A model generated the notes under the pieces. That model was not told the DNA's origin. It saw only the letters and a program-made list of their open reading frames with translations, and made no database searches. Position numbers and translations under genes: made by a program. This document shows positions 34,531 to 63,332 of a DNA stretch of 64,000 nt, piece by piece (the first letter of the stretch is position 1; every line of letters begins with the position of its first letter). Source of the stretch: Bacillus sp. 103mf (GTDB lineage Bacteria; Bacillota; Bacilli; Bacillales; Bacillaceae_G); the NCBI RefSeq assembly GCF_900116295.1, contig NZ_FPAF01000003.1, forward strand, positions 124,001 through 188,000, written 5' to 3'.

Positions 34531-34602
34531 TGAATCATTCCAAAAAATATTTTTTTTGGAAAAATAATAGACAATTTCTAAAATTATGCTATCATATTAA
34601 CT

Positions 34603-34621: not shown

Positions 34622-34642
34622 GTTGGTATGGGGGACTACATA

Positions 34643-35605: not shown

Positions 35606-35618
35606 GGAGTTGGAGACT

Positions 35619-36650
35619 TTGTATCATACACAAACTAGAAGCAGACGGGCGTTAAACCCGTATGCTTCTTCTACTTTGCAATTTATTTTCTTTTTTCTAT
35701 TATTAGTAATGGTGGGAGCTTTCTCCGCATTATTTCGTGTAAAAGGATTATCATTTCATAACATATCAGAAGTATTTGCAGCGGATACAAAAAATTTAAT
35801 TTACTATACAGTTTGGCAAGTACGTATACCACGTGTAGTGTTAGGAGCTTTACTTGGCGCGGCATTAGCTGTTGCCGGGTGTCTTTTACAAGGAATTACG
35901 CGAAATCCGTTATCTGACCCAGAAAATATGGGAATAAATCAAGGGGCTTCTTGTTTTGTTGTTATTGCCCTTTTAGTATTTGGAGAGAAGGATACGAGTT
36001 TCGTTATTTTACTAGCAGCTTTTCTCGGGGCCGCAGCAGGAGGAAGCGTTATTTATTCATTAGCATTTCGCGGCGAATATACACCTTCACGTCTTGTGCT
36101 TGCTGGTATTGCAGTGAGTCTATTCCTTGGATCATTAACGACAGGAGCGATTTTGTTATACGAAACACAACTAACAGAGATTTTATATTGGATGGCCGGA
36201 AAGTTATCAGGGGCAAGCTGGCAAGATATAAAAATGATGTTAGTATCAGCAGTTCCTGTTATAATTCTTGTTTTTTTTCTAGCAAATCAATTGAATATTT
36301 TATCGCTTGGTGAGGAGACAGCGCGTGGACTTGGTGTAAATGTTCTTCGTATTCGGAGAGTATTTGCGTTTTTAATTGTTCTTCTTGTCGGTAGTGCAGT
36401 TGCGGTAGCTGGACCGATTGGTTTTATCGGACTGATAGTTCCGCATATTGCAAGAAAATTAGTTGGTCAAGATTATCGAATCATTTTACCATTTTCTGCA
36501 TTGCTCGGCGCTAATCTTCTTGTCATCGCAGATTTTGCAGCGCAATGGGTGTCTTATCCAGCAGATACACCTGTTGGCGTTATAACAGCGCTTTTAGGTA
36601 CACCGTTCTTCATTTATTTAATGAGAAGGAAGAGAGGTGCTGTTAAATGA
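35619..36650 (+). CDS. htsB: HtsB-like FecCD siderophore permease
   Basis: A ~343-residue FecCD permease with about ten helices. Family motifs are present: WQVRIPRVVLGALLGAALAVAGCLLQGITRNPLSDPENMGI, LGEETARGLGV (ATPase coupling) and GPIGFIGLIVPHIARKLVG. The TTG at 35619 has AAGGAG nine bases upstream; the TTG at 35610 abuts the site. It ends in an ATGA overlap with the next permease. The two make the membrane channel for the ferric siderophore. Confidence 0.9.
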   Translation: MYHTQTRSRRALNPYASSTLQFIFFFLLLVMVGAFSALFRVKGLSFHNISEVFAADTKNLIYYTVWQVRIPRVVLGALLGAALAVAGCLLQGITRNPLSDPENMGINQGASCFVVIALLVFGEKDTSFVILLAAFLGAAAGGSVIYSLAFRGEYTPSRLVLAGIAVSLFLGSLTTGAILLYETQLTEILYWMAGKLSGASWQDIKMMLVSAVPVIILVFFLANQLNILSLGEETARGLGVNVLRIRRVFAFLIVLLVGSAVAVAGPIGFIGLIVPHIARKLVGQDYRIILPFSALLGANLLVIADFAAQWVSYPADTPVGVITALLGTPFFIYLMRRKRGAVK

Positions 36651-37624
36651 AGAAGTTTGGCCGGTTTACTATTGTTATAATAGTAGGTCTTATATTGCTA
36701 ATTGCACTTTCTTTACTAAGTTTGCGGCTTGGCGCGGTACCAACGCCATTTGCTGAGATTATAGAAGGACTGATGACAGGAGAAGGTGTTGTCTTAAAAT
36801 ATCGTTTACCACGTCTTATCATAGCGATTTTAGTTGGAATTAACATGGCGTTATCAGGATCCATTTTACAAAGTGTTACAAGAAATCCACTTGCAGCACC
36901 TGATGTTATTGGAGTTTCTGCTGGTGGAGGATTAGCGGCTGTTATTATGCTCCTTATGTTTCCGAGTGTGCCGGCAATTATGCTCCCAGTTGCTGCATTT
37001 GCTGGGGCAATGATTGCAAGTTTGCTTGTGTATGTATTATCGTATCAAAAAGGAGGAGTAAAACCGGAACGTCTTGCACTATGCGGCGTTGCGATTTCTA
37101 CGGGTTTACAGGCTCTTATTACATTTATTATTGTGAAATTTGCAGTTGATTCCTCACAAGCACTTGTGTGGCTAAAGGGGAGTTTATATGCAAGATCTTG
37201 GGAACATGTTGACATGCTATGGCCGTGGACGATCATTGGAGCGGTCATTACATTTGCAAGTTATAAGCAAATTAATCTTTTGTTATTAAATGAAGAAACA
37301 GTAAAAGGTTTAGGCATGCGTATTAATGCTGTTCGTCTTGTTCTGATCGGTGTGGCCGTTGCCTTAGCTGCAAGTTCAGTAGCAGTAGCAGGGACAATTA
37401 GTTTTGTAGGGCTTGTTATCCCGCATGCAGCGCGTCTGCTTATTGGTTCAGACAGTAGATTGTTCTTGCCAATTTCAGCGTTACTTGGTGCATTACTCGT
37501 TACGGGTGCAGATATGGTGGGGAGAATTATAATTCCGCCAATTGAAATACCAGCTGGTATTATAACAGCACTTATTGGCGCACCGTATTTTATATATTTA
37601 CTCGTGATTAGAAAAGGAACATAG
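36647..37624 (+). CDS. htsC: HtsC-like FecCD siderophore permease
   Basis: A 325-residue FecCD permease paralogous to its neighbour: LPRLIIAILVGINMALSGSILQSVTRNPLAAPDVIGVSAG, LNEETVKGLGMRINAVR and GTISFVGLVIPHAARLLIG. ATG 36647 overlaps the htsB stop (ATGA), so the two are translated together and likely form a heterodimer. A hairpin repeat follows before the ATPase gene. Confidence 0.9.
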   Translation: MKKFGRFTIVIIVGLILLIALSLLSLRLGAVPTPFAEIIEGLMTGEGVVLKYRLPRLIIAILVGINMALSGSILQSVTRNPLAAPDVIGVSAGGGLAAVIMLLMFPSVPAIMLPVAAFAGAMIASLLVYVLSYQKGGVKPERLALCGVAISTGLQALITFIIVKFAVDSSQALVWLKGSLYARSWEHVDMLWPWTIIGAVITFASYKQINLLLLNEETVKGLGMRINAVRLVLIGVAVALAASSVAVAGTISFVGLVIPHAARLLIGSDSRLFLPISALLGALLVTGADMVGRIIIPPIEIPAGIITALIGAPYFIYLLVIRKGT

Positions 37625-37631
37625 TCTCCTA

Positions 37632-37712
37632 TAAAGTGAAACTTCCATCAGTGGAGAATTTTTTTCATCTCCCACTGATGGTTAGCCCGCGAATAGCGGG
37701 ATAAATAACAAA
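37632..37712 (+). repeat. AAGTGAAACTTC hairpin repeat, copy 3, between htsC and its ATPase gene
   Basis: AAAGTGAAACTTCCATCAGTGGAGA and TCTCCCACTGATGG can pair across a T-rich loop. Then TTAGCCCGCGAATAGCGGGATAAAT forms a second small hairpin. It sits inside the transporter operon and could trim or stabilise the message between the permease and ATPase genes. Confidence 0.78.
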
Positions 37713-37727
37713 TAAGGAGTGAACAAG

Positions 37728-38549
37728 ATGACAAGTTTACATACGGAACAGTTGGAGCTTACGTACGGAAATCAAACCATTATTAATCATCTTGATTTAC
37801 ATATTCCAGAAGGAAAAATTACGGCACTAGTTGGCCGAAATGGATGCGGAAAGTCAACGATTTTAAAATCGCTAGCACGATTGCTGCAACCAACTAAAGG
37901 TCACGTATATTTAGATGGTAAAGCAATTCATACGATGCCAACAAAAGAAGTATCAAAGAAATTGGCAATTTTACCACAATCACCGACGGCACCCGAAGGA
38001 TTAACAGTAGAAGGTCTCGTTTGGCATGGTCGTTATCCGCACCAACACTTACTGGGAAAGCGAACGGAGAAAGACCATGAAATGGTAAACTGGGCGCTTG
38101 AAGTAACGGGAATGCATCAATTTACAGATCGTACATTAGATGAACTTTCAGGTGGACAGCGTCAGCGTGTTTGGATTGCGATGGCACTTGCGCAAGATAC
38201 AGAGTTATTATTACTAGATGAACCGACAACGTATTTAGATATGGCCCACCAGTTAGAAATATTAGAGTTATTGAGAAAGTTAAATGAAGAAGAAAATCGA
38301 ACGGTTGTTATGGTTGTACATGATTTAAATCATGCGGCTAAATATGCGCATCACATTGTTGCGATTAAAGATGGAGATAAAGTAATGGAAGGAGCACCAA
38401 GTGATATTTTAAATGATGAATTGTTTGAAACAGTGTTTGGTGTGAAAGCACGTGTTGTATATGATCCAGTTGCGATGACATATATGTGTACACCTTATGC
38501 GTTACTCTCAGAAAAAAAAGAACAGCAAAAAGAAAGAATTGTTGGATAA
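37728..38549 (+). CDS. FhuC/FecE-like siderophore ABC ATPase
   Basis: A 273-residue ATPase: Walker A GRNGCGKST, then ILPQSPTAPEGLTVEGLVWHGRYPHQ, signature LSGGQRQRVWIAMALAQD, Walker B LLLLDEPTTYLD and switch MVVHDLNHA. This set is typical of FhuC/FecE-like iron-siderophore importers. ATG 37728 follows AAGGAGTG with an 8-nt gap. It closes the htsABC-like operon. Staphylococcal htsABC lacks its own ATPase and borrows FhuC, so a linked ATPase is a notable difference. Confidence 0.9.
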   Translation: MTSLHTEQLELTYGNQTIINHLDLHIPEGKITALVGRNGCGKSTILKSLARLLQPTKGHVYLDGKAIHTMPTKEVSKKLAILPQSPTAPEGLTVEGLVWHGRYPHQHLLGKRTEKDHEMVNWALEVTGMHQFTDRTLDELSGGQRQRVWIAMALAQDTELLLLDEPTTYLDMAHQLEILELLRKLNEEENRTVVMVVHDLNHAAKYAHHIVAIKDGDKVMEGAPSDILNDELFETVFGVKARVVYDPVAMTYMCTPYALLSEKKEQQKERIVG

Positions 38550-45791: not shown

Positions 45792-47069
45792 ATGAAAATA
45801 ACTCGAGTTTTTTTTCTCTTTTGTATAATTTTTTTAAGTTTTTCATTCCATACTTATGCACAGGATACGTTACAATCTCAAATTGACGCTGCTCCTGAAT
45901 ATGGAATTGTAAAAATACCGAGTGGTATCTATAACGAGACACTCGTTCTTTCAAAGCCTGTTACTTTAGAAGGGACAGGGGAAGTCACTGTTCGTTCTTG
46001 TAGTAAAGAGCCTGTTATTACGGTAAAAGGACAATCTGTCACCTTGAAGCATATAAAGGTAGAACAATGCAGCAGTAGAGCAGACACGGAGGCTATTCGT
46101 GTTACTGGTAAGAATCATAGGTTGAATAATCTTCAAATCTACACAAAGCAGTTCGGGATTAAATTTAACGAGACAAGTGATACGGTTGTAGAAGGTGGTT
46201 TTATTAAAGGGAATTCGAAAGGAAACGGAATCGACTTATGGGAATCAAATAACAATATGATTCAAGGAGTCGAGATTGATAGAGTAAGAGATGGCATTTA
46301 TATTGAAAATAGTCATTTTAATCGAATAACCCGCAATGCTATCGGAAATTCTCGTTATGGCATACATATTATGTTTTCTAATCACATAACCGTACAGGAT
46401 AACAAGTCTCACAACAATATTACAGGTGCCATGGTGATGGGAACAAAAGAGACAAAAATTAAAAGGAACGAGTTAACTTTCAATAATCGTAATGTTAATG
46501 CACAGGGTTTATTGCTGTATGATGCAGAGAAAACAGAAGCGATTGGCAATCGAATTTCTTATAATCGTGTTGGAATGTATGTGGAAAATGCAAATAACAA
46601 CCGTATTTCAGATAATGAAGTAAATGGGAATTTTATTGGCATGCAAATTAAAAATGCTAATGAAAATAATGTGTCTGACAATGTCTTTATTGGAAATGTA
46701 AATGAGTCTCAAGCGATAAACAGCACTGAAAACAAAATTATACATAATTATTGGGACGCATCCTTGAAACTGGATACAAAGGGAAATGGTATTAGCAGCA
46801 TTCCGCACAGAGCAGATCCATTTTTTCTAACACTAACAAATGAAGTCCCCGAATATCAGTTGTTTTTCCAAGCGCCTGGTATGCTTGTACTCCAAGCATT
46901 GTTAAAAAGTCCTGAAAATCAAGTTTTAACTGATTATGAACCTAGGATGACAATTAGAGGGAAAAAGGAAGAAAACAATTCTTCATTTAAGATGCAAATC
47001 GGAATAATCAGTATGAGTATGTTAGCAATAAGTATTACTTTATTTAAAATTGGGAGGAAAAGAAGATGA
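45792..47069 (+). CDS. nosD: NosD-like periplasmic-type copper processing protein
   Basis: A 425-residue exported right-handed beta-helix: signal peptide ending FHTYAQ, then repeats such as NGIDLWESNNNMIQGVEI, DGIYIENSHFNRITRNAI, YGIHIMFSNHITVQDN and VGMYVENANNNRISDN (CASH/NosD domain). The C-terminus has APGMLVLQALLKSP, seen in NosD, and a closing transmembrane helix. NosD works with NosF/NosY to mature the copper centre of nitrous oxide reductase. GAGGAGAT precedes ATG 45792. It overlaps nosL by 4 bp. No nosZ lies in the window. Confidence 0.87.
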   Translation: MKITRVFFLFCIIFLSFSFHTYAQDTLQSQIDAAPEYGIVKIPSGIYNETLVLSKPVTLEGTGEVTVRSCSKEPVITVKGQSVTLKHIKVEQCSSRADTEAIRVTGKNHRLNNLQIYTKQFGIKFNETSDTVVEGGFIKGNSKGNGIDLWESNNNMIQGVEIDRVRDGIYIENSHFNRITRNAIGNSRYGIHIMFSNHITVQDNKSHNNITGAMVMGTKETKIKRNELTFNNRNVNAQGLLLYDAEKTEAIGNRISYNRVGMYVENANNNRISDNEVNGNFIGMQIKNANENNVSDNVFIGNVNESQAINSTENKIIHNYWDASLKLDTKGNGISSIPHRADPFFLTLTNEVPEYQLFFQAPGMLVLQALLKSPENQVLTDYEPRMTIRGKKEENNSSFKMQIGIISMSMLAISITLFKIGRKRR

Positions 47070-47584
47070 AATGGAAAGGTTTATTTATTACAATAGTTGC
47101 AGCTCTTTTATTGACAGTAGTTGGCTGCGGGAAAAAGGAAGTTAAGCCAGTATCAATTGACGAGAAAACTGATAAATGTGCCAACTGTAATATGGCTGTG
47201 ACGAACGATCAATTCGGAACAGAAGTAATTCTTGAAAACGGTAAATCATTAAAATTTGATGATCTTGGTTGTATGTACAAATGGATGAATAAAAACAAGA
47301 ACGAAAAGTTGCAAGCAAAATTTGTACGTGATTACAATACAAAAGAGTGGGTTGAAGTAGAGAAAGCGACTTATGTTTATGACAAAGATATTAAAACACC
47401 GATGGCTTATAATGTGATTTCTTTCAAAGATAAAAAAGATGCAGAAAGCTTTGTCTCTAAAAATAAAGGTGAAGTGTTAGAAGCAAAAGATTTGGAAAAG
47501 CATGAATGGAAAAAGAACATGGATATGATGATGAAAATAAAAGAAGAGAATGCAAAGAAAAAGGATATGAATCATTCTCATTAA
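47066..47584 (+). CDS. nosL: NosL-like copper chaperone lipoprotein
   Basis: A 172-residue lipoprotein: lipobox ending VVGC (Cys21), then the NosL copper site CANCNMAVTNDQFGTEVIL and FDDLGCMYKWM. NosL binds Cu(I) outside the membrane and feeds nitrous oxide reductase maturation. The ATG at 47066 overlaps the nosD stop (ATGA). The C-terminal tail is rich in K, M and D and ends in HSH, possibly extra metal ligands. A terminator follows, then a hairpin repeat before nosY. Confidence 0.9.
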   Translation: MKWKGLFITIVAALLLTVVGCGKKEVKPVSIDEKTDKCANCNMAVTNDQFGTEVILENGKSLKFDDLGCMYKWMNKNKNEKLQAKFVRDYNTKEWVEVEKATYVYDKDIKTPMAYNVISFKDKKDAESFVSKNKGEVLEAKDLEKHEWKKNMDMMMKIKEENAKKKDMNHSH

Positions 47585-47585
47585 T

Positions 47586-47620
47586 AAAAAAGGACAACCG
47601 CTCCGGTTGTCCTTTTTTAT
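47586..47620 (+). terminator. Terminator-like hairpin after nosL
   Basis: AAAAAGGACAACCG and CGGTTGTCCTTTTTT form a perfect stem with a 3-nt loop. It could split the cassette into nosDL and nosYF transcripts, or attenuate the latter. Confidence 0.9.
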
Positions 47621-47762
47621 CCTGCAATAAGAGGGAGTTAGCCCCACTTTAAGATTGAGAGAGAAGAAAATAGATGGGGGCTAACTGCTGGCATGCGCCC
47701 GATTGGTTCAATTAACCATCAGTGGGGGACTCCACTGATGGAAGTTTCACATTATGGAAAGA
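47618..47762. repeat. AAGTGAAACTTC hairpin repeat, copy 6, between nosL and nosY
   Basis: TATCCTGCAATAAGAGGGAGTTAGCCCC...GGGGGCTAACTGCTGGCATG and AACCATCAGTGGGGGACTCCACTGATGGAAGTTTCAC, an inverted-orientation copy. Strong stems TTAGCCCC/GGGGCTAA and CCATCAGTGG/CCACTGATGG are visible. Confidence 0.78.
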
Positions 47763-47770
47763 GGGATATT

Positions 47771-48583
47771 ATGTGGCACATTTGGCAATCTGAGTGGCGA
47801 ATCACGATAAGACAACGTTCATCTTATACATTTGTCATTCTTTGGACGAGCGTTTTGTCTTTACTATTTTTATTGGAGCGAAATACACCTACTATAACAG
47901 GATACACAAATATGACAGGTACAATGGTGAATTTAGTGCTGTATATTATACCGTTATTTATGCTTATTATCAGTTCTTTTTCTATTGCAAATGAAATGGA
48001 AAACGGACAGTGGCGGTTATTAAGTACGTATCCCATTTCTAGTGTTGCTTATGTAATGGGAAAAGCATTCGGACAATTTACAGCGCAGCTCATTATTTTT
48101 ACACTTAGTTATGGTATAAGCCTTATAATTGGTCTCATTAGTGGAAGTGCATTATCTATTAAATGGGTGCTAGCTCTTTATATATTCTCAATAGTATTAA
48201 TGCTTTTCTTTTTAATAATCGGTTTCGTGGTAGGTTCTTTTGTCGTAACAAGATGGCAGGCGCTAACAATATCTGTTGGGGTTTGGTTTTTCTTAATTAT
48301 GATTTGGCCTACTGCACTTATTGCTGTTCTTAGCTTTGTTCCGTATCCAATGATTGCTGTGTTCCTAAAAGTAGCTTTGTTTGTTAATCCTGCTGAACTG
48401 CTTCGCATCGTATTTGTTGTTCAATTAGGTGGTGGTGCAATATTTGGACAAGCATACGATACTCTTATTACTTTCTTACAATCTGAGGCGGCGTGGGGAG
48501 TTCTCATTTTATATACACTGATATATATGGCTTTGGGTTTTACTCTCTCTGCATGGAAGCTAGAAAGGAGAAAAATGCAATGA
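47771..48583 (+). CDS. nosY: NosY-like ABC-2 permease
   Basis: A ~270-residue permease with six hydrophobic segments. The coupling loop ANEMENGQWRLLSTYPISSVAYVMGKAFGQ and the length fit NosY, the membrane partner of NosF. ATG 47771 follows AAAGAGGG; the upstream ATG at 47693 lies in repeat DNA. It overlaps nosF by 4 bp. Its place after nosD-nosL supports the Nos assignment over a generic exporter. Confidence 0.83.
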   Translation: MWHIWQSEWRITIRQRSSYTFVILWTSVLSLLFLLERNTPTITGYTNMTGTMVNLVLYIIPLFMLIISSFSIANEMENGQWRLLSTYPISSVAYVMGKAFGQFTAQLIIFTLSYGISLIIGLISGSALSIKWVLALYIFSIVLMLFFLIIGFVVGSFVVTRWQALTISVGVWFFLIMIWPTALIAVLSFVPYPMIAVFLKVALFVNPAELLRIVFVVQLGGGAIFGQAYDTLITFLQSEAAWGVLILYTLIYMALGFTLSAWKLERRKMQ

Positions 48584-49278
48584 CACTTTTGCAAGTTAAA
48601 GAGGTTTCAAAAGAATATAAGACAAAACAAGCACTTTCTCACTTTTCGCTTCAAGTAGACGAGGGAATGTGCATCGTACTATGCGGGGGAAACGGTGCAG
48701 GAAAAAGTACACTTCTTCATATATTGGCAGGTATTTCAAAACCGACAGAAGGCACGATTGTATTGAATGGGATTGCTCTCCATGAAAACAGGAATGCATA
48801 CGTGTCACAAATTGGATATATGCCAGATGACTTCCATGCGCAGGAGATGATGACTGTGCATGAATTTCTTTCTTTTTATGGTGTGTTACGAAAGGCTAGT
48901 CAGCGACAAGTACAAGAGATTTTAGAAAAGATAGGTCTGATTGAAAAGAGGAATGAACTTGTAAAACATTTATCGAAGGGAATGCGTCAACGCTTAGTAT
49001 TTGGACAAGCGTTGTTAGGGAAACCGAAACTATTATTATTAGATGAACCGACGAATGGTTTGGATCCATTTTGGGTCGATGCATTTGTCGAGGTTTTACA
49101 GGACATTAAGAAGAATGGGACAATTGTTATTTTTTCCACACACATGATGGACGTGGCGGCGGAGATAGGGGATTGTATTTTGTTTATGAAAGATGGGATT
49201 GTGACAAAGCGTATTGAACATAAAGGAAGTAAAGAGGAGAAAACACTGCACTTGTTACAATTGCACCGGCAGGGATGA
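48580..49278 (+). CDS. nosF: NosF-like ABC ATPase
   Basis: A 232-residue ATPase: Walker A GGNGAGKST, signature LSKGMRQRLVFGQALLG, Walker B LLLLDEPTNGLDPFWVDAF and switch IFSTHMMDVAAEIGD. AAGGAGAAAAATGC precedes ATG 48580, which overlaps the nosY stop. NosF-type ATPases are short, as here, and energise NosY with NosD for copper-centre assembly. Confidence 0.87.
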   Translation: MTLLQVKEVSKEYKTKQALSHFSLQVDEGMCIVLCGGNGAGKSTLLHILAGISKPTEGTIVLNGIALHENRNAYVSQIGYMPDDFHAQEMMTVHEFLSFYGVLRKASQRQVQEILEKIGLIEKRNELVKHLSKGMRQRLVFGQALLGKPKLLLLDEPTNGLDPFWVDAFVEVLQDIKKNGTIVIFSTHMMDVAAEIGDCILFMKDGIVTKRIEHKGSKEEKTLHLLQLHRQG

Positions 49279-53413: not shown

Positions 53414-53462
53414 TAAAAAGAAGAAAAAACGTAGTTTGATCAAACTATGTTTTTTCTTCTTT
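53414..53462. terminator. Bidirectional terminator between SMP-30 gene and the RiPP operon
   Basis: AAGAAGAAAAAACGTAGTTTGA and TCAAACTATGTTTTTTCTTCTT form a ~22-bp stem (one mismatch) that would stop both converging transcripts. Confidence 0.9.
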
Positions 53463-53482: not shown

Positions 53483-56035
53483 TTATTTACTTTGCAATAG
53501 ATGAATTGGTTTAGCTGATAAGGATTGTTTTGCTGCAATCCAAACAACAATCGCTGTTGTGATAACAGATAACAAGATGCCCAGAATAGACCAAGTTATA
53601 TCAATTTTCATTGGCATTTGGAATAAGAATCGTAAAACAACTCCTGAAAAAGCTAAAGCAATTCCAGCCCCAACGAATCCGGCTGATAAGGAAATGACCG
53701 TGTTTTCTAATAAAATGGATTTCATTAAATTGCCCGAAGACATACCAACTGTCTTTATAATGGCAACATCTCGTGTTTGTTGAAGTAAGCGAATAACCAC
53801 TTGATTTCCAATCGTCAGAACCGCAGTTAAGAATGCAAATAAGGCTACGATAGAAAAGAAAGCACTTTGCATACGAATAATATATTGTAGACTATCGATA
53901 GCTGTAGCGGAAATTGAGTAAGCCATTGCTGAATTTGGAAGTTTGTTGTTTAGATCTGTTAGAATGACATTCGTTTGCTTCGGATCGCTATCTATTGAAT
54001 AGGTAATGCGGTTCGGCTTTCCGTATGTAGCTAATGTTTTTGTTGGAATACGAATACCTACCGTTTTTACAATACCTGATTTAAAAAACCCTACAATTTC
54101 ACAATTCACCAATTCATTTCCTATTTGAATATCAACTGTATCACCTGTTTTGAGTCCTATCTTCTTATAACTATCCAACAGGATTGCTTTTTTTTCATCT
54201 GCATCTGCTGAAGTTAAATCGCGTCCTTCAGATATGGTATATGCTTTGGAAGTAAGAGAAGTATCTATACCTTCTACTGAAATTTTAGTTGAACTAAAAA
54301 ATTTGTCCTCTTTTATTTTTTGGGCGAATTTAGATGCGGCTTCTTCACCATTAATATTTTGGAGTCTTCCATCTAATTGATAGCCTTTTTTCCATGCTTT
54401 TATTTCCTTCATTGATTTAAGTTGTTTTTCAACTTTTTCTTCATCGTTCACTGAACTTGTAATTAGAAGATTTCCCATTGCTTCTTTTTCTAATTGTCCT
54501 TGAACAGATTCAATTAAATTATCAGCAAATACGTGGCTAGAAACTACAGAAACGACACCTATCGTTAAGGTAACTGCTAATAATCCATTTCGCTTATTCG
54601 TAGCTGCTATATTGTGTAAGGCAAGAAAAAGACCTTGTGGCATCCTATTTTTCATAGCCCCAATAGTTCGGAATAATAAAGCGTATATAAATCCAATCGA
54701 ACGAATGAAAGCAAAGATGAGTAACATGACTCCTGTTGTAAGTAGGAAAGCAAGAATCCATTTAAATATAAAACTACCATTTGCGCTGGTTGTAAATGCT
54801 ACTTTGTAAACATAAATAGAAAGAATACTACAAACTAAAATAAAAAGTTGAAGTTTTTTTCTAAAAGGTAATGAATAATTTACATTTGTATTCTCTGTAT
54901 CCCGTAACATTTGAAGAGGTGACACACGCATTCCACTTTTTACTGGTATCCATGATGCTAAAAAGGTTACGACGAATCCAACAACGATTGTAGTACCAAC
55001 AACAGACCATGACATCCCCCACGTAAGGGGTAATGAAAGTACATTTGATAAATATGAGGTGAGCCAAACACTAACTAATAATCCAATTCCAATACCACCA
55101 GTTGTTCCGAGGATTGCTAACCAGAATGCTTCTAGCAAAAAATATCGAACGATAGATCGCGTTTTCATTCCTACTGATTTCATGACAGCGATATCATGTG
55201 TGCGCGTGGCAATGATTACTTTCATTGTATTTGAAGTTGTGATTGCCGCGATTCCAAGAGCTAATATGCTAAATAGTTGAAGAAATGGCAGTAACATATG
55301 CAAATCTTTTTGTTTTTCTAATTCTTTATCACGAATGTCGATTACACTGCTTTGTGGGAATTGTTCTTGCACTTTACTTTTAAAAGTAGAAACGTTAACT
55401 TTATTATGCAATACAATTAAAGCTTCATTAATTGTATTTGCTGGTACATTTAAAAGTTGTTGTGCTTGATTTAAATGTAGATAAGCTGTTCCAAAGATAG
55501 AAGCATCACCATAAGATTCTTGAACGCCTTCGACAAGCCCACGAATTTTATAAGAAGACATCGCTCCGGTAGAACGATTCGGAATCTCCACATTATCTCC
55601 GACTTTCACTTGTAAACGATCCGCAGTACTTTTTGATAAAAGCACTTCATTCTCTTGTAAATTACGAACATTCGGAAACTGATTATCTCCATACAGCGGA
55701 TATTGCTTTGGTTCTATACCCTTTATTATTAAGCTTGTTGTTTTTTTATCAGACTTTACCATACTCTGACCTAATAAAGAAGTTGTAAGTGCTTTTTGTT
55801 CTTCTTTAGGAACAGAAGAGATCAATGTATCACGGTTAACAGGGTTTAAGTAGGATTGAATAGCTACGTCTCCTCCTAAAAGAATTTTAGAGGATTCGTG
55901 AATAGAACGAGGAACTAATTCGACTAACAGTGACATTGAGAAAAAGCTAGCTACCCCAATTACAATACTGAACATAGTAAAGAGGGTTCTCAAACGATTT
56001 CGTACTAAACTACGTAATGCTGATTTTAGTAACAT
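53483..56035 (-). CDS. MacB/FtsX-type ABC transporter permease of the RiPP cluster
   Basis: An 850-residue permease made of two FtsX-like halves. Half 1: RSLVRNRLRTLFTMFSIVIGVASFF, an extracytoplasmic domain (residues ~40-240) and helices with TTSNTMKVIIATRTHDIAVMKSVGMK. Half 2: a second long outside domain and VVIRLLQQTRDVAIIKTVGMSSGNLMKSILLENTVI. This is the lipoprotein/peptide-type ABC family rather than a peptidase-containing exporter. Its start overlaps the ATPase gene by 10 bp. In the operon it is the last gene before a terminator. A role in export of, or immunity to, the modified peptide is inferred. Confidence 0.9.
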   Translation of the reverse strand: MLLKSALRSLVRNRLRTLFTMFSIVIGVASFFSMSLLVELVPRSIHESSKILLGGDVAIQSYLNPVNRDTLISSVPKEEQKALTTSLLGQSMVKSDKKTTSLIIKGIEPKQYPLYGDNQFPNVRNLQENEVLLSKSTADRLQVKVGDNVEIPNRSTGAMSSYKIRGLVEGVQESYGDASIFGTAYLHLNQAQQLLNVPANTINEALIVLHNKVNVSTFKSKVQEQFPQSSVIDIRDKELEKQKDLHMLLPFLQLFSILALGIAAITTSNTMKVIIATRTHDIAVMKSVGMKTRSIVRYFLLEAFWLAILGTTGGIGIGLLVSVWLTSYLSNVLSLPLTWGMSWSVVGTTIVVGFVVTFLASWIPVKSGMRVSPLQMLRDTENTNVNYSLPFRKKLQLFILVCSILSIYVYKVAFTTSANGSFIFKWILAFLLTTGVMLLIFAFIRSIGFIYALLFRTIGAMKNRMPQGLFLALHNIAATNKRNGLLAVTLTIGVVSVVSSHVFADNLIESVQGQLEKEAMGNLLITSSVNDEEKVEKQLKSMKEIKAWKKGYQLDGRLQNINGEEAASKFAQKIKEDKFFSSTKISVEGIDTSLTSKAYTISEGRDLTSADADEKKAILLDSYKKIGLKTGDTVDIQIGNELVNCEIVGFFKSGIVKTVGIRIPTKTLATYGKPNRITYSIDSDPKQTNVILTDLNNKLPNSAMAYSISATAIDSLQYIIRMQSAFFSIVALFAFLTAVLTIGNQVVIRLLQQTRDVAIIKTVGMSSGNLMKSILLENTVISLSAGFVGAGIALAFSGVVLRFLFQMPMKIDITWSILGILLSVITTAIVVWIAAKQSLSAKPIHLLQSK

Positions 56036-56766
56036 GACGTTGTTTCACCTTCTTTGGGAGTTGTATGATTATTCACGTTTTCTTGAATTAACAATCCATC
56101 TTCTATTTGTAAAATACGATCTGAAAGCTTTGCTACATAAGAATCATGTGTAGCGATAATAAAAGTCATGTTAAGTTGATCACGTAGTTGAAAGATTAAA
56201 TCCAAAATAGTTTGTCCCGTTTTCGTATCTAAATTACCAGTAGGTTCATCTGCAATAACAATAGCGGGGTTGTTTACTAATGCACGGGCAATTGCAACGC
56301 GTTGTTGCTGACCTCCTGATAGCTGGCTTGGTAAATGATGATAACGTTCTTTCATCCCAACAAGATCGAGCATCTCTCTTGCCTTATGTATCATTTCTTT
56401 TCGACTCTTCATCCCGGCGCACATAAGTGCCATCATTACATTTTCCTCGGCTGTCATCGTTGTTACTAAATTATAGGATTGAAAAACAAAACCAATTTTT
56501 TTCGCACGAAAATCTGCTAAATTTTCTTCAGATAGGGATGTAATATCCTGTTGATCAATCATAATGCGTCCTTCGCTTGGGGTGTCTAATGATCCTAATA
56601 TCCCGAGTAATGTAGATTTTCCACTCCCACTAGGACCTATAATACTAACCACTTCTCCTCGATAAAATTGTGTATCAATTCCTTTTAAAATATGGATGAT
56701 TCCTGCTTCCGTTTCATAATTTTTCTTTATTCCCTGTACTTGAAGAATAGGGTGTTTTGTTGTCAT
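56026..56766 (-). CDS. MacB/LolD-type ABC ATPase of the RiPP cluster
   Basis: A 246-residue ATPase: IIGPSGSGKSTLLGILGSLDTPSEG (Walker A), LPSQLSGGQQQRVAIARALVNNP (signature), AIVIADEPTGNLDTKTG (Walker B and D-loop) and FIIATHDSYVA (switch His). GGAGGAACAAAGG precedes its ATG, and its first 53 bases overlap the end of the M50 gene. It pairs with the downstream FtsX-like permease. Such pairs export peptides or give immunity to them. Confidence 0.93.
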   Translation of the reverse strand: MTTKHPILQVQGIKKNYETEAGIIHILKGIDTQFYRGEVVSIIGPSGSGKSTLLGILGSLDTPSEGRIMIDQQDITSLSEENLADFRAKKIGFVFQSYNLVTTMTAEENVMMALMCAGMKSRKEMIHKAREMLDLVGMKERYHHLPSQLSGGQQQRVAIARALVNNPAIVIADEPTGNLDTKTGQTILDLIFQLRDQLNMTFIIATHDSYVAKLSDRILQIEDGLLIQENVNNHTTPKEGETTSCY

Positions 56767-57955
56767 CCTTTGTTCCTCCAGACTTTTTGAATTTTAGTGC
56801 GAAGACAATTATGGTTCTAATTAAAACTATAATGATTACAATGAACAAACCTTTTGCATTTCCCCAAGTAAAAGATTCTATAGATGTTAATAAATAAAAG
56901 ATGTATCGAATAATGAACCATATGGCAGTAATGACTGAACAAAAATATATACTGGCATATGTGAGAAATGCTATTTTGTAGTGTTTATTCATATTCCGAA
57001 TGGTATCATTGAATTGCTCTTTATAATCAGGTTTGAAAAACAAGTATCCTAGTAAACCGCTTTTTACCAATTTGAAAGTTCGAGTATGCAAGTTTGCGAT
57101 TCCTAGAATGTCGGTTAGAGCCCAAAAGCCATCATATTGTAAAAATGGATATAAGTTATATAAAACTGTAATGAGAATAAATTGATTTGCTACAAAAAGT
57201 TCTTGATACCCTGAAATCCAATAGCATAATTCTAAAAATATAAATATCCATAATTCAAAATAAATTCCCCCGAGATCAATAACTACTCTATACTTCCTAG
57301 GTAATCGCCAAGCATCACTTAAATCAACAAATAAAACAGGTCTCATCATATAAAGACCAGCTCCAACATCCTTTGGTTTTATCCCATAACGATAAGCGGC
57401 AACTATATGACCAAATTCGTGGATAATTATAGAAAATAAAAGTAGAAAAATTGCAATGAAAAATTTAGATACTGATCCAAATGTGTTAGCTATATTTTCA
57501 GTATTAATTTGAAAAAAATAATGTATTAGACTTATACTGAAACAGATGCAGAATAAAAATAATGCTCCCCATGAAAAAAAGAATTTGAAATATTGAGACG
57601 CTTTTTGTAAGCGTGATGCATGGAATATTGCTATTCTAAATGTAATTGCAGAGTGATGAGATGCTCTTTTTTCTGAACCAACTAAAATTCCCTTTGGCAA
57701 TAAATGCACATTTATAAGCTCTTCTAATTCGCTTATAGTTATATGTCCACCATAATCATTCTGTACAATTGTACAAATATCCTCTATTGAACTTGTTCCA
57801 TCCATATAATTAAATAGGTTTTTTAATGATTCTGTAACTTTTATCTGTAACCCGTTATCAAATTTAATTAAATAACGGGGCCCGTCCTCCCAAACATCCA
57901 TATTGTAAACTTTATAAGGGATTAGTTTTGGGAAAAAGATTTGTGAGGTTGTCAA
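56714..57955 (-). CDS. PqqD-like/M50 site-2 protease family membrane protein of the RiPP cluster
   Basis: About 413 residues. The N-terminal ~90 residues form a PqqD-like winged domain (RYLIKFDNGLQIKVTESLKNLFNYMDGTSSIEDICTIVQ), the fold that recognises RiPP leader peptides. Then come about eight membrane helices with the zinc motif HEFGH (first His near residue 179) and the second M50 motif N-x-x-P-x-x-x-x-DG (NLYPFLQYDGFW). TTG 57955 follows AAAGGAT with an 8-nt gap; the open frame extends to 57991 without a ribosome site. It is likely the leader-removing protease at the membrane, using its own leader-binding domain. The fusion is known in RiPP clusters but its role here is inferred. Confidence 0.85.
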   Translation of the reverse strand: MTTSQIFFPKLIPYKVYNMDVWEDGPRYLIKFDNGLQIKVTESLKNLFNYMDGTSSIEDICTIVQNDYGGHITISELEELINVHLLPKGILVGSEKRASHHSAITFRIAIFHASRLQKASQYFKFFFSWGALFLFCICFSISLIHYFFQINTENIANTFGSVSKFFIAIFLLLFSIIIHEFGHIVAAYRYGIKPKDVGAGLYMMRPVLFVDLSDAWRLPRKYRVVIDLGGIYFELWIFIFLELCYWISGYQELFVANQFILITVLYNLYPFLQYDGFWALTDILGIANLHTRTFKLVKSGLLGYLFFKPDYKEQFNDTIRNMNKHYKIAFLTYASIYFCSVITAIWFIIRYIFYLLTSIESFTWGNAKGLFIVIIIVLIRTIIVFALKFKKSGGTKDDNKTPYSSSTGNKEKL

Positions 57956-58021
57956 ATTTGTCACATCCTTTGAGAAGAAGTAACCCCACAATGATAAAGA
58001 TGTTTGTGGAGTTAGATATTT

Positions 58022-59476
58022 TTATTTGATTAGTTCTAAAAAAGCTGTTTCGTTTTGTTTTATATAAGTTGAAATTGTTTGATGTGAGTCATTACAATAA
58101 GGTTTATTAATGGCACCATTACGCATTAGATTGGCATAAGCGCAGCCCCCGCCACAAAATAATGAAATGCTACAGTTAATACATTGCTTTGAATCAGTGA
58201 TATCTTGATCCCAAATGGCATGTTTGCTAGGATCTAGATTATATTCAGGGAAAAAAGAACCTACTGCTGTTTGGGGTTTACCCACTGCTTCTGGACAAGC
58301 ATATATTAGACCTTCTGCACCAAACGCATAAAAACGATGTTCTCGTGCGCTGCATTCTTTAAAATAAGGTAAGCTATGCATAACAGGAGAACATGAATCG
58401 AGTTCGCTTACCTTTTCCCAATCAAAAGTACGTATAGCTTGACGGATCCTAGAAGTACGAATATTAAGGTCTGTACCGAGTTTGGCATTAAATTTATCCA
58501 TAAAGTCCTCTAAATCTCCAAAAATATTATAGATTTCGGCCAATAGTTCATGCTCTGGAAGATGGTTCGGTAGATTGTCTCCATAATGGTCTGTAACAGG
58601 GGACACCTGCCAACCAAAGTTAGGATAATTATGCCAATTTTTGTTTTCGATAAAAGTAGCTAATTCTTCTAAATGCTCGAGGTTATCTTTATTTACATTG
58701 GTACGCAAACCCACTGCGAAGCCGCGTTCTAATGCCATTGAGATATTAGCGGTAATTCGATCGAATGTTCCGGTACCACCCGCTGTAATACGCCGTTGAT
58801 CATGTATATGTTTTGGACCATCAATAGAAATTTGAAAATAATCCCAGTTATCTTTGTAGGGTTCTAAAAAATCTAAAAATTCGTGTAAAAACGTACCATT
58901 TGTAATTGCATACATGCGAAATCCATATTCTTTGGTTGCACGTTGAACAACTCTTTCGACAGTTTTTCGAGTTGTTGGTAATAATGGTTCACCACCATAC
59001 AGCATCATACGATGGGTTGCATCTTTAAAGCGTCCACGCTCATTCTCCATAGATAAAATGTTGTCCACTGCTTGAAACATTTTATCTACTTCTGTAGATG
59101 TTAAAGCATGTGAGATTTTATGTATGTCATGACCTTGGTAACAATAAGGACATCGAAGATTACACATATATGTTGTACATACGTTGAATGTAACACCGGA
59201 ATTGCTGCTTGCTAAAGATTGGGTCATCCGATCACGAATAATAGTAAGTGTGTTTAATTCTTCATCACGATCCTTAAAAAGGTAACCGCGTTTTGTTAAA
59301 AAAGAGAGGAGTTCCTCTAATTCAGGATAAGGAGTTAAATTTTTATTACGCCTAATATCATCTAAAACTTTTTTTATGTCCGCATTAATTACATCAAGGG
59401 CACCGCTTAGTGAGTTTATTAAAACAAAATTTCCATCAGATAATTTATATGTTGAATTATAAGTGCTTGCAATCAT
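58022..59476 (-). CDS. Radical SAM/SPASM peptide maturase 1
   Basis: A 484-residue enzyme. Residues 1-90 form a leader-binding-like N-terminal domain (LSDGNFVLINSLSGALDVINADIKKVLDDI). The radical SAM cluster is C105-x3-C109-x2-C112 (CNLRCPYC), with MLYGGEPLLP for SAM binding. The C-terminal SPASM region has seven or more cysteines (YACPEA; CINCSISLFCGGGCAYAN; PYC) to hold two auxiliary iron-sulphur clusters. Such enzymes form thioether or carbon-carbon crosslinks in peptides. It is paralogous to the upstream enzyme, 16 bp away, so the two are coupled. The target is inferred to be the Cys-rich peptide at 61035. Confidence 0.93.
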   Translation of the reverse strand: MIASTYNSTYKLSDGNFVLINSLSGALDVINADIKKVLDDIRRNKNLTPYPELEELLSFLTKRGYLFKDRDEELNTLTIIRDRMTQSLASSNSGVTFNVCTTYMCNLRCPYCYQGHDIHKISHALTSTEVDKMFQAVDNILSMENERGRFKDATHRMMLYGGEPLLPTTRKTVERVVQRATKEYGFRMYAITNGTFLHEFLDFLEPYKDNWDYFQISIDGPKHIHDQRRITAGGTGTFDRITANISMALERGFAVGLRTNVNKDNLEHLEELATFIENKNWHNYPNFGWQVSPVTDHYGDNLPNHLPEHELLAEIYNIFGDLEDFMDKFNAKLGTDLNIRTSRIRQAIRTFDWEKVSELDSCSPVMHSLPYFKECSAREHRFYAFGAEGLIYACPEAVGKPQTAVGSFFPEYNLDPSKHAIWDQDITDSKQCINCSISLFCGGGCAYANLMRNGAINKPYCNDSHQTISTYIKQNETAFLELIK

Positions 59477-59492
59477 AGCTTAGTCTCTCTCC

Positions 59493-60872
59493 CTATACTA
59501 AAATTTCTTCTTTAATGCTATCTAAATATTCGAAAACTTGTTTATTTGTTTGTGGACAGTTTGGCTGATTTAAATTCCCGTGAACAATAAGAGCCTCAGC
59601 AGCACAACCACCTCCGCATATAGGAGATGAAGCACAGGACTTACATTGTGGAATGGTAAGTGAATTGAATTCTTTCCACTTGTCCCATTTCCAATCTTGA
59701 CGAGCGAATTTAGGGAAATAATCTCCAATTTTGAATTCTGGTCGTCCAACTAAATCGGGACATGCGTAAATGTGGTTATCTGGTCCAAAGACCACTCGTT
59801 TTCCTTCGGCTGATTCACAATAGACTATATTTGGGACGATCATTTCAATTTTATTTTTTAATGCAGGGTCTAACTGCATAATTGGTTTGAAGAAACGATA
59901 CATATCAGCCGCAACGTTAAGCGATTTTTGAGCTTCTAATTTTTCAAAATCAGGAATGTTTTTCTGGAGTTTCTTTACAATTTCGTACCCTTTCATTAAA
60001 TCTTCTCCCAAGCCTTTGCATGTATGATCTGTAACAGGTGAAAAAGAAATTGAGAAATTTTCATTATTAAACAAGTTATTTTTTTGATAGTAGTCTATGA
60101 GAAGTGGGATGTAGTCAACGTTAGTTTGATCGATATTGACCCTTACAATGGTTCGGATACCATGATTAAGTGAATCGCAAATACCTTTTTGAATCTGATC
60201 AAATGTACCTTGTCCTCCAGTCATAATCCGTCGTTGATCGTGTATAGATTTAGGACCATCGACTGTAACCATAATATTCATTCGATCACGATAGTTTTTT
60301 AAAATTTGTACGAAAGAAGAAAGGTGATAGCCATTTGTATTGCAGCCAATTTTGAAGTTGCGTTTAACAGCTTCTTCGCAAATTTGTTTGACTATATTTT
60401 TGGTGAATGGAAGAAGTGGTTCACCTCCGAAAAGATTGATCATTCCAATTGTATAACCACTTTCTTGATGAAATATATCTATAGCGGCCATGATTGCTTG
60501 TAGCTGTTCGACGGTTAAAGCTGTTATTTTTTCATGAAGACTATGACTTTCAAAACAGTAAGGGCACCGAAAATTACATGTATATGTAGGACAAATTACA
60601 TATTGCATTTCATTTCCAGCATCTACAATATTTTTGGCTTGCCATAATCTGTGTTCCCTGTCTTCATTGTTTCTAAATATATACCCTCTATCTAGTAACA
60701 CTTTAGTGGCATCTTTCTCTTCGTTAGATAAATTTATTGGATCTATATGTGGTAATTTATCCATCAAGTCAATTAAATCTTGTGAAAAAAAATCAACAGC
60801 ACCTGTTAAGGTGTTAATCATTAAAACCTCTCCATTTAAAGGATAGCGTAAGTGATATTTATTAATAATCAT
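59493..60872 (-). CDS. Radical SAM/SPASM peptide maturase 2
   Basis: A 459-residue paralogue of the enzyme at 58022. N-terminal leader-binding-like domain LNGEVLMINTLTGAVDFFSQDLIDLMD, cluster motif C99-x3-C103-x2-C106 (CNFRCPYC), INLFGGEPLLP, VDGPKSIHDQRRIMTGGQGTFD and a SPASM tail (YACPDL; CKSCASSPICGGGCAAEA; PNC). AAGGGTG precedes its ATG. It lies 162 bp after the precursor gene, beyond a perfect 18-bp hairpin. Two maturases suggest either two kinds or two registers of crosslink, as in two-enzyme sactipeptide systems. Confidence 0.93.
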   Translation of the reverse strand: MIINKYHLRYPLNGEVLMINTLTGAVDFFSQDLIDLMDKLPHIDPINLSNEEKDATKVLLDRGYIFRNNEDREHRLWQAKNIVDAGNEMQYVICPTYTCNFRCPYCFESHSLHEKITALTVEQLQAIMAAIDIFHQESGYTIGMINLFGGEPLLPFTKNIVKQICEEAVKRNFKIGCNTNGYHLSSFVQILKNYRDRMNIMVTVDGPKSIHDQRRIMTGGQGTFDQIQKGICDSLNHGIRTIVRVNIDQTNVDYIPLLIDYYQKNNLFNNENFSISFSPVTDHTCKGLGEDLMKGYEIVKKLQKNIPDFEKLEAQKSLNVAADMYRFFKPIMQLDPALKNKIEMIVPNIVYCESAEGKRVVFGPDNHIYACPDLVGRPEFKIGDYFPKFARQDWKWDKWKEFNSLTIPQCKSCASSPICGGGCAAEALIVHGNLNQPNCPQTNKQVFEYLDSIKEEILV

Positions 60873-60930
60873 CGAATCACCCTTGTATGATAATATTTAT
60901 ACTTGTTGAAGTTATTAGTTAATTAGGATA

Positions 60931-60969
60931 AATATTTTCTGTTCTTGCACAGCAAGAACAGAAAATATT
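60931..60969. promoter_or_regulatory. Perfect 18-bp hairpin between precursor and maturase genes
   Basis: AATATTTTCTGTTCTTGC (60931-60948), a 3-nt loop and its exact complement at 60952-60969. On the minus strand, no T run follows it, so it is not a classic terminator. It probably slows transcription or guards the 3' end of a short precursor message, raising precursor over enzyme levels. Confidence 0.85.
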
Positions 60970-61034
60970 AGATTTAATACTTCAAAGTATTAAAGAATAC
61001 AATTACTTACCTTGTTTTTAACCATGAGTATAAA

Positions 61035-61199
61035 CTAGATTTGGAAACAACAATTAAAGCAACAATTATCGCAACAAATTGAGCAGTTGAAGCATCTCAT
61101 TTCATCTCGGTTTTCAAGTGTTTCCATTTGATCAGCTAGTTTTGTCCAAAGTTGATCGTTTTCATTAACAGAACGAATCTTAAAAGATTTATTTTCCAT
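61035..61199 (-). CDS. Cysteine-rich RiPP precursor peptide (candidate)
   Basis: A 54-residue ORF too small for most gene callers. Residues 1-35 are a charged leader without cysteine (MENKSFKIRSVNENDQLWTK then LADQMETLENRDEMR). Residues 36-54 are CFNCSICCDNCCFNCCFQI: eight cysteines at 36, 39, 42, 43, 46, 47, 50 and 51 in the pattern CxxCxxCCxxCCxxCC. AGAGGAGGA lies 7 bases before the ATG, an excellent ribosome site, and a -35/-10 pair precedes it. It is the first gene of the operon with two radical SAM enzymes, a protease and an ABC pair. A metal-binding role cannot be excluded, but the context makes a crosslinked peptide product far likelier. Confidence 0.87.
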   Translation of the reverse strand: MENKSFKIRSVNENDQLWTKLADQMETLENRDEMRCFNCSICCDNCCFNCCFQI

Positions 61200-61258: not shown

Positions 61259-61286
61259 ATTATAATATAAAAATAATTCTTGTGAA
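61259..61286 (-). promoter_or_regulatory. Sigma-A-type promoter for the RiPP operon
   Basis: On the minus strand: TTCACA (61286-61281), 16-nt spacer, TATAAT (61264-61259), about 50 bases before the precursor ATG. Confidence 0.65.
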
Positions 61287-61329: not shown

Positions 61330-61589
61330 TTATTACTGTATTTTTCCATTATTTGGAGTCGACTCAACTATTATAATAAACGAATCTATATTTAGTTAAC
61401 AAGAGTTAATATCTGAACATTCTGTGACAGACTTTTCAGACTAACAAGTCTATTAAATGCATTGAGTTCCACATTCTTGAATAATGATAACCAAAATTTT
61501 ATGTGTGATTTTTTTGATAAAGAATAGCATTGTTTTTCTTTTCAAGATAAAAGTTAAAAAAGATATAGAAGGAGCTTTTAGTGGATGAT

Positions 61590-61626
61590 AAAAAGGAGTT
61601 GACCTTTATTGGTCAACTCCTTTTTA
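61590..61626. terminator. Terminator after the DMT transporter gene
   Basis: AAAAAGGAGTTGACC and GGTCAACTCCTTTTT form a perfect 15-bp stem with T/A flanks on both strands. It ends the minus-strand transporter transcript and insulates the RiPP promoter. Confidence 0.92.
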
Positions 61627-61672
61627 TATTTTAAAGAACTATGATGTGATATAGTCAATATAAGGTAAAACG

Positions 61673-62612: not shown

Positions 62613-63332
62613 TTATTTATATCCAATAGCAAGATACATTTGCCCCATTTTATTGGTAATTCTACTATAAATATACTCTTGAATCCCTAAAAATGCCTCA
62701 AATTCATTATCTGGCTGAAAAGAAGCCATTTGTTCGTCTGAAAAGGGAATGATATTTTGAATTTTAGCATACGGGAATATTGAATCCATTAATTTTTTAA
62801 ACTCGATAGCAGACATACTATTATTCTTTAATTTAACTTTTTCTTGTTCGTTATAAAAAGATAAAAATTCAGTGAAAGAACAATCCGGATCCCAAGAAGA
62901 AATAATCACAAAACCTCTTGGTTTTAAAATATATTTAACTTTTTTTAGAAAATGTTCATATTGCTCTTGGTTCATATGACAAATAGTACCCATCATACAT
63001 GTGATTAAGTCGAATGAATTTTCAGGGAAATCAAGTTCTGTTGCATCCATTTTAAATAAATTGACTTTATCAGAAACTCTTTCTTTCATAACATTGTTAG
63101 ACGCAATTGTTAGAGCGTCATCGGAAATATCTATTCCAGTAACCTCATATTTCTTTTTTGCAAATAAAATCGGATATCTTCCGGTAGCTGTACCAATATC
63201 TAGAATTTGTGAAATGTTTGGATTTTCACTTACAATTTTTAATACACTTTGTAGTTCTAAATATTTTTTTACTTCATCAGCATGAGGTAACTGCATATAG
63301 GTTTCATATCTTTTTTCATCATATTTAATCAT
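62613..63332 (-). CDS. Class I SAM-dependent methyltransferase
   Basis: A 239-residue methyltransferase: ILDIGTATGRYPILFAKKKYEVTGIDIS (motif I and acidic strand 2), LFKMDATELDFPENSFDLITCMMGTICHM (motifs II-IV) and LKPRGFVIISSWDPD. This Methyltransf_11/25 type acts on small molecules. AAGAGGGG precedes the ATG on the minus strand. It leads the operon with the DMT transporter; the substrate might be the exported compound, which is inference. Confidence 0.9.
   Translation of the reverse strand: MIKYDEKRYETYMQLPHADEVKKYLELQSVLKIVSENPNISQILDIGTATGRYPILFAKKKYEVTGIDISDDALTIASNNVMKERVSDKVNLFKMDATELDFPENSFDLITCMMGTICHMNQEQYEHFLKKVKYILKPRGFVIISSWDPDCSFTEFLSFYNEQEKVKLKNNSMSAIEFKKLMDSIFPYAKIQNIIPFSDEQMASFQPDNEFEAFLGIQEYIYSRITNKMGQMYLAIGYK

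Follow-up and report, generated by a model that had tools for sequence, protein, structure and literature searches.

The question raised by a six-gene operon in Bacillus sp. 103mf is what kind of peptide it makes. The operon lies on contig NZ_FPAF01000003.1 within the 64,000-nucleotide stretch of DNA analysed here (the window), where six open reading frames (ORFs), all on the minus strand in the ORF listing, fill positions 53483–61199 and encode a short precursor, two radical S-adenosylmethionine (SAM)/SPASM enzymes (rSAM1 and rSAM2), a membrane protease, and the ATPase and permease of an ATP-binding cassette (ABC) transporter. Together, these genes very probably make a small, cysteine-packed modified peptide of a real family, apparently unnamed, of ribosomally synthesized and post-translationally modified peptides (RiPPs). 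We consider it likely that the family is new and that its thioether crosslinks are the work of two cooperating enzymes; one ribosomal peptide would be crosslinked under the guidance of RiPP recognition elements (RREs), freed of its leader by an RRE–M50 protease, and exported by a MacB/YbbP-type transporter. A preliminary description, which had proposed that the operon makes, cuts, and exports a thioether-rich peptide, is supported by the analysis; it was right in substance and careful in claim.

The 54-residue precursor-like ORF of that description is real. Its leader recurs beside the same genes in seven other loci, and leader changes between close pairs are mostly synonymous (synonymous:nonsynonymous 10:2, 10:2, and 2:1 in three pairs), which together argue that the ORF is more than chance; changes in the core were mixed (3:0, 8:1, and 3:3). 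The leader follows the pattern ..LWTxL..LENRDEM, with a mean pairwise identity of 69.9% over 28 residues compared with 37.2% for the core, and the invariant residues of the precursor (window numbering) are K7, N12, L17-W18-T19, L21, E26, L28-ENRDEM34, N38, and C50-C51. The window core packs 8 cysteines into 20 residues as a C-C-x-N/Q ladder. By locus, the cores read RCFNCSICCDNCCFNCCFQI in the window, LCFNCTICCDNCCWNCCIQF at L038, ACINLCCWNCCFQI at L039 and L040, TTTNAVSPEITWCIDCCFQI at L001 (one residue different at L002), and SIINAGSCCFQPWTCCIKISFS at L041 (ending CCVKVN at L003). Each holds between 3 and 8 cysteines, and natural cores with 3, 4, 5, and 8 of them go with orthologous enzymes. 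In all eight precursors, the cysteines run to near the C terminus and an N, D, or T stands directly before the last C-C; the residue two before this last pair is W or F in six of the eight cores and I in both three-cysteine cores. No credible family was found for any of the eight in NCBIfam or Pfam, where the few matches (best E 0.0009) were to unrelated proteins such as FlaF. A literature search, from which subscription journals were mostly absent, turned up no paper on this precursor, and its motif strings returned unrelated papers.

Conservation of the whole cassette was followed through several genome sets. A single-protein scan of the GTDB r220 contigs with rSAM1 gave no match; an alignment of both paralogues gave 27 loci, among them L001 (P. 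sambharensis) and L002 (P. tarimensis), which carry rSAM1 at 53% identity and the full operon. The precursor profile found 6 of 394 Paenibacillaceae genomes (the family of genome G001), and a separate rSAM2-profile search of the same genomes (E 1e-60, four scored candidates per genome) found the same six, at more than 900 bits against a next best of 348. The precursor, which the preliminary description had allowed might be missing where the rest of the operon occurs, thus occurs with its enzyme. The chance of this exact coincidence is 2e-13 under chance placement, a yardstick only, given the relatedness of the genomes and the use of some of these loci in building the profiles. Across the class, 398 evenly drawn genomes gave five precursor hits at E ≤0.01, of which three were real (two already seen and one new, in G497); the weak hits in G658 and G726 were dropped on account of in-frame stops and no operon genes nearby. 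The class draw contained no cereus-like genome (best fumarase DNA identity, 74%). Two other orders returned 0 of 261 and 0 of 15 genomes, zeros that come without a positive control. Plasmids gave no match to the precursor or the operon DNA, and with rSAM1 gave 70 records, all below 60% identity (best 28.8% among the 40 listed), none of which was taken as an orthologue; viral contigs gave no match.

Seven operons are complete (window, L001, L002, L038, L039, L040, and L041) and one is decayed. The latter, L003 (Paenibacillus brasilensis, 7600–11500), retains rSAM2 (less its start), an intact precursor, the ATPase, and the permease, with an IS3-like transposase (identified by eye) in the place of rSAM1 and an interrupted protease gene. 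The precursor comes first in the window, L038, L039, and L040, and lies between rSAM2 and the protease in L001, L002, L041, and the decayed L003 (order B). Trees of rSAM1, rSAM2, the protease, the ATPase, and the permease from the seven complete operons have an identical unrooted topology, in which the window falls between L038–L040 and L001/L002/L041; the splits around it have support of at least 0.956, except for one ATPase split at 0.70. Because the five protein trees agree, the cassette appears to have been passed on as a single unit. The idea of a horizontal island was dropped, as GC content gave no signal (0.342 in the operon and 0.345 outside).

The two enzymes, previously described as paralogues, are indeed related, with 30% identity over their length. 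Both match Pfam Radical_SAM (PF04055), and the CX3CX2C motif and the C-C-CxxCx5Cx3C-C cysteines, read by the SPASM spacing rule, are invariant in seven of seven members of each orthologue set. NCBIfam matches were read for the best 25 of 67 models (rSAM1) and the best 25 of 72 (rSAM2). Among these, rSAM1 and rSAM2 scored 142.4 and 121.6 bits with CefB (cut-off 600), 139 and 120 bits with TIGR04463 (cut-off 525), and 131 and 121.5 bits with Clo7bot (cut-off 600). The sole cut-off passed was that of the general SPASM domain, by rSAM1 (51.9 bits against 27), and neither enzyme reached that of any RiPP family; the L001 and L003 orthologues also lie below the CefB, TIGR04463, and Clo7bot cut-offs. 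The preliminary description had failed to match the locus to a known RiPP type, and these scores agree with it; the counter-case it had named, of enzymes aligning best to a characterized family with another target, did not materialize, CefB being the best at so low a score. The closest solved structure to both enzyme profiles is 5WGG, which we take to be CteB (E 1.3e-23 for rSAM1 and 1.3e-15 for rSAM2); with rSAM1 it scored 86.5 bits against 35.3 for SkfB, which is absent from the five structure matches of rSAM2. As the 5WGG match starts at profile position 9, it includes the N-terminal region. CteB is described as a ranthisynthase with an N-terminal RRE in the accessible portion of PMC8326336. 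The RRE folds of both enzymes and of the protease are putative.

For the protease, called PqqD-like/M50 in the preliminary description, the M50 part and an RRE-protease relationship held, whereas PqqD itself was matched weakly by one of the seven orthologues (E 0.014). The HExGH and DGFW motifs are invariant in all seven, and each matches both Peptidase_M50 (Pfam; best E 6.3e-9) and the daptide RRE/intramembrane protease model NF041824 (best E 2.9e-36), the latter with homology over most of the length. The window protease scores 109 bits with NF041824 (cut-off 300) over residues 39–329. The transporter genes are of MacB type, as had been stated, judged by a LolD/MacB/YbbA-type ATPase and by the MacB_PCD and FtsX domains of the permease.

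Feature coordinates are collected in Table 1. The tiny gaps and overlaps ascribed to the whole operon are found from rSAM1 to the permease: the rSAM1–rSAM2 gap is 16 nt, the rSAM2–M50 gap is 30 nt if translation of the protease begins at TTG 57991 and 66 nt if it begins at TTG 57955 (starts that were compared with the orthologues), and the M50/ATPase and ATPase/permease genes overlap by 53 and 10 nt, respectively. They are not found between precursor and rSAM1, where the one gap that is not short (162 nt) carries a perfect 18-bp hairpin. A strong Shine–Dalgarno sequence, AGGAGG (61213–61208), precedes the precursor ORF. Of the one promoter and one terminator described earlier, the latter is backed by the fold of a terminator-like hairpin 3′ of the permease gene, which the consensus terminator scan did not list; the candidate promoter upstream of the precursor is only suggestive, as promoter-like sites in the region were not above shuffles (35 against a mean of 39.1, S.D. 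6.9). Rfam gave no match in the window at gathering thresholds. The stem-loop after the precursor gene is probably a leaky terminator or mRNA stabilizer that raises precursor over enzyme levels. It lies 3′ of this gene wherever the gene sits, in the window and in all five orthologous loci folded (L001, L038, L039, L040, and L041), and at L039 and L040 ends in a U run, resembling a leaky terminator. A separate perfect 17-bp hairpin (window 61588–61627), between an upstream DMT-type permease gene and the operon, is probably a two-way terminator.

Table 1. Features of the operon and its flanks, in window coordinates
Feature	Position	Strand	Remarks
Candidate promoter, TTCACA-N16-TATAAT, upstream of precursor	61259..61286	-	11/12 consensus matches
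Precursor, 54 aa; leader residues 1–34 (..NENDQLWTKLADQMETLENRDEM), core residues 35–54 (RCFNCSICCDNCCFNCCFQI)	61035..61199	-	ORF; leader conserved in seven other loci
Core-coding stretch, 8 Cys as C-(C)-x-x units	61038..61097	-	includes 12-nt tandem duplication 61045–61068
Perfect 18-bp stem-loop, precursor–rSAM1 interval	60931..60969	-	stretch folds at z -5.1
rSAM1, radical SAM/SPASM, 459 aa; N-terminal RRE-like region, CX3CX2C + 7 SPASM Cys	59493..60872	-	
rSAM2, radical SAM/SPASM, 484 aa, rSAM1 paralogue	58022..59476	-	
RRE-like N-terminal region fused to M50/site-2-type membrane protease (HEFGH; YDGFW), 425 aa from first TTG	56714..57991	-	start TTG 57991 or 57955
ABC transporter ATPase, LolD/MacB/YbbA type, 246 aa	56026..56766	-	PF00005
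ABC permease, 850 aa, YbbP/ADOP-like; MacB_PCD and FtsX domains in two stretches each	53483..56035	-	
Terminator-like hairpin 3′ of permease	53417..53462	-	arms 53417–53439/53440–53462, 96% complementary; fold z -6.1

On these conserved and co-inherited genes with intact motifs, we infer crosslink chemistry, enzyme cooperation, cleavage site, export, and biological role as follows. The conserved leader would be held by RRE domains on three proteins, the protease and each of the radical SAM/SPASM enzymes. These enzymes would be non-redundant and probably paired on one core, by analogy with TrnC/TrnD of thuricin CD, a system in which, as far as the excerpt of PMC12093266 goes, two radical SAM enzymes form a tight complex whose work neither can do by itself. 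Thioethers would run from the cysteines to neighboring Asn, Asp, or Thr, as in NxxcA and freyrasin; this ranthipeptide-type chemistry is the first choice because the last C-C follows N, D, or T in every precursor and because the nearest solved enzyme is CteB. The available section of PMC8326336 gives a Cys23–Asn20 Cβ thioether for NxxcA and a Cys–Asp Cβ thioether for freyrasin. PapB tolerates Cys-Xn-Asp with n of 0–6, poorly at the ends of the range (PMC9413430, in the part available), so short rings are chemically plausible. The RRE–M50 membrane protease would remove the leader at or near ..LENRDEM, and its daptide counterpart, an RRE fused to a site-2 protease, is reported in the accessible text of PMC10036551 to remove the leader in an RRE-dependent manner. 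The MacB/YbbP-type transporter would then export the product of ∼20 residues, protect the producer, or both, and the stem-loop directly 3′ of the precursor gene probably ensures a surplus of its mRNA. A variable core under a constant leader, the sporadic distribution, and the decayed copy point to a bacteriocin-like role. If this is correct, the family would stand out for a core unusually rich in cysteine (8 of 20 residues) and for a leader read by three RRE proteins, its series of cores with 3, 4, 5, and 8 cysteines would allow direct tests of enzyme cooperation and of crosslinking ring by ring, and it may yield new bacteriocins.

Several observations weigh against this account. The peptide is known from its genes, and sequence does not separate ranthi-type from sacti-type chemistry. 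The 8-cysteine cores hold five Asn/Asp/Gln, fewer than their cysteines, so some cysteines must be free, in disulfides, or joined to other acceptors, and core spacing is too variable to assign one acceptor per cysteine. The window protease sits right at the Peptidase_M50 gathering score (27.0–27.2 against 27.2). Neither a regulator nor a separate immunity gene was seen in the operon. Outside the window, the orthologues come only from the G001-family set and G497. For the stem-loop, the shuffle control covers the window, the other five loci having been folded without shuffles, and in order-B operons, in which rSAM2 precedes and the protease follows the precursor, it would reduce expression of the protease and transporter genes instead of that of the enzymes.

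Other products of the same genes were considered. A sactipeptide, with thioethers to α-carbons as in thuricin CD, is rather unlikely. Thuricin CD reportedly has an ABC transporter, as this operon does, and the F, I, V, and T beside the cysteines could be α-carbon acceptors. However, classical sactipeptide cores keep their cysteines in one half and the acceptors in the other, whereas those here extend almost to the C terminus in all eight precursors, and rSAM1 is far closer to 5WGG than to SkfB, which does not appear for rSAM2 at all. In its favor, two paralogous radical SAM/SPASM enzymes are present here, and thuricin CD has two enzymes in the portion of PMC12093266 at hand. Different radical chemistry, such as cyclophane or ether formation or epimerization, would make the vicinal cysteines disulfides or metal ligands and the W or F near the last CC a crosslink partner. 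We regard this as improbable: W or F does occupy that position in six cores, and the dynobactin (DynA) and cyclophane (YhhB) enzyme models score, though low, but the residue is I in both three-cysteine cores, and DynA and YhhB rank below CefB, TIGR04463, Clo7bot, and PapB for both enzymes.

As to role, the peptide could be a signal or self-regulator and not an antimicrobial, a doubtful proposition on balance. Some ranthipeptides act in signaling, and no immunity gene was seen except perhaps the transporter; the variable core under a constant leader, the occurrence in 6 of 394 genomes, and the decayed L003 copy speak against it, none of them directly. Membership of the daptide class, suggested by the NF041824 match to the window protease, is scarcely credible and was rejected. 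Radical SAM enzymes also occur in some daptide clusters, and a Bacillus cereus daptide cluster has been reported (PMC10036551, in the part available), but the protease falls well short of the model cut-off, all eight precursors lack the C-terminal Thr and ELExMEAP leader that the same text describes, and genes for a decarboxylase, an aminotransferase, and a methyltransferase are absent inside the operon, a methyltransferase-like ORF lying outside it (62613–63332).

The thioether-crosslinked family proposed above may have wider kin. A leader-only profile was run on 10,488 stop-free segments from the window and 23 of 86 loci. The eight family members necessarily ranked at the top (E 8.8e-22 to 4.9e-20), followed by nine rows up to E 10. 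Seven of these nine are small peptides with Cys-Cys, encoded next to other radical SAM genes or between them: L005 and L070 (same sequence, E 0.025), L006 (0.067), L069 (0.34), L068 (0.73), and L067 and L075 (same sequence, 2.8). The other two, at L039 (E 2.6) and window 48957–49043 (E 9.1), are unrelated. The E values of these rows are not convincing alone; the positions of the genes carry the case. The LW peptides of L004 (with CCDQ repeats) and L007 were spotted by eye and not recovered by the profile. In a 23-row tree, rSAM2 groups with one enzyme of each other pair (87/72; inner group 98/95), and the partner enzymes form separate, well-supported groups in no settled mutual order, suggesting, short of proof, that the paired-enzyme arrangement is old. 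Other Bacillota also have distant clusters in which paired enzymes accompany LW leaders and CC cores.

One such set is a second Paenibacillus paired-enzyme family, seen at L005:7335–12352, L067/L075 (G238), L068 (G213), L069 (G245), and L070 (G201), with the precursor beside or between the enzymes (e.g. L005:8782–8922, core ..ACCQKASIQINNPTKKAI); at L005, a large B12-binding-radical-SAM-like protein and an MFS-like transporter come next (by eye). Its best rSAM2-profile scores are 277–348 bits, in 8 of 394 genomes (G204, G208, G242, and G243 by score alone). At L004:2674–6552, from Herbivorax sp., two precursors that carry CCDQ-type repeats and an LW leader sit between two radical SAM enzymes; neither enzyme reaches a cut-off among models at E 1e-30 or better. 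Tentatively, and with less than even confidence, the operon may be a branch of an old, apparently undescribed Bacillota RiPP superfamily defined by a non-redundant radical SAM/SPASM pair, an LW leader, and vicinal-cysteine cores. The pair would work as a heterodimer, forming short thioether rings from each C-C to an adjacent residue. The ladder would grow by duplication of 12-nt codon blocks, and ring number would therefore be evolvable. This logic would then extend to the clostridial CCDQ members and to the other Paenibacillus branch, which has an ACC core and, at one locus, an additional B12-type radical SAM protein.

Elsewhere in the window, a TnpB-family RNA-guided endonuclease is encoded at 14067–15341 on the plus strand (NF040570, 212.5 bits, cut-off 100). 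Positions 28091–38549 hold two IucA/IucC-type siderophore synthetases (223 and 208 bits with the FslA model, cut-off 1000), an MFS-like protein, an ornithine-racemase-like protein (394 bits, cut-off 480), and, by eye, a siderophore-type ABC uptake set, an arrangement that resembles a staphyloferrin A-type cluster. A NosD-like protein (257 bits, cut-off 300), a NosL-like lipoprotein, and an ABC permease/ATPase (by eye) lie at 45792–49278; no ORF of at least 150 aa stands between this set and the fumarase gene, and no search was aimed at nitrous oxide reductase.

Among known systems, the operon resembles the ranthipeptide systems (CteA/CteB SCIFF, PapA/PapB freyrasin, and NxxcA) in its radical SAM and SPASM architecture with a putative RRE, Cys-rich core, Asn/Asp/Thr near cysteines, and 5WGG as best solved relative of both enzymes. 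It differs in having two enzymes instead of one, a precursor that matches no such family, and a CC-x-N/Q core in place of CX3D; rSAM1 and rSAM2 do not reach the cut-off of the PapB model (109 and 116 bits against 340) or the SCIFF maturase model (98 and 75 bits against 425). The CefB "Cys-every-fifth", TIGR04463, and Clo7bot maturases are the highest-scoring NCBIfam models for both enzymes, which nevertheless stay far under their cut-offs. Thuricin CD (TrnA/TrnB, TrnC/TrnD) likewise has two radical SAM enzymes in one cluster, TrnC/TrnD being compared by description only, but it has two precursors and another core layout, and the present operon carries an RRE–M50 protease. Only one precursor was found here, the window holding one credible leader match besides the unrelated row at 48957–49043, in a search that covers this leader only. 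The CLI_3235/CcpM sactipeptides, such as SacP23 of Paenibacillus polymyxa, also combine a Cys-rich precursor with a radical SAM enzyme in Paenibacillus, but the precursor sequence is unlike, and the CcpM model TIGR04068 gives 75 (rSAM1) and 96 (rSAM2) bits against 500. According to the accessible part of PMC10731318, the SacP23 cluster encodes a single radical SAM enzyme together with an acyl-carrier-related protein and a protease of subtilase-like type; a common family with SacP23 and the P. polymyxa Kp10 sactipeptides was weighed and, on such partial sources, rejected. The daptide protease (MpaP, NF041824) shares the RRE-like N terminus fused to an M50/site-2 protease for leader removal, but the window protein scores under the family cut-off and the remaining daptide set is absent from the operon. 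New radical SAM RiPP families are found often, and as this operon reaches no named peptide family tested, it probably represents another, a new family of radical-SAM peptides that are perhaps bacteriocins.

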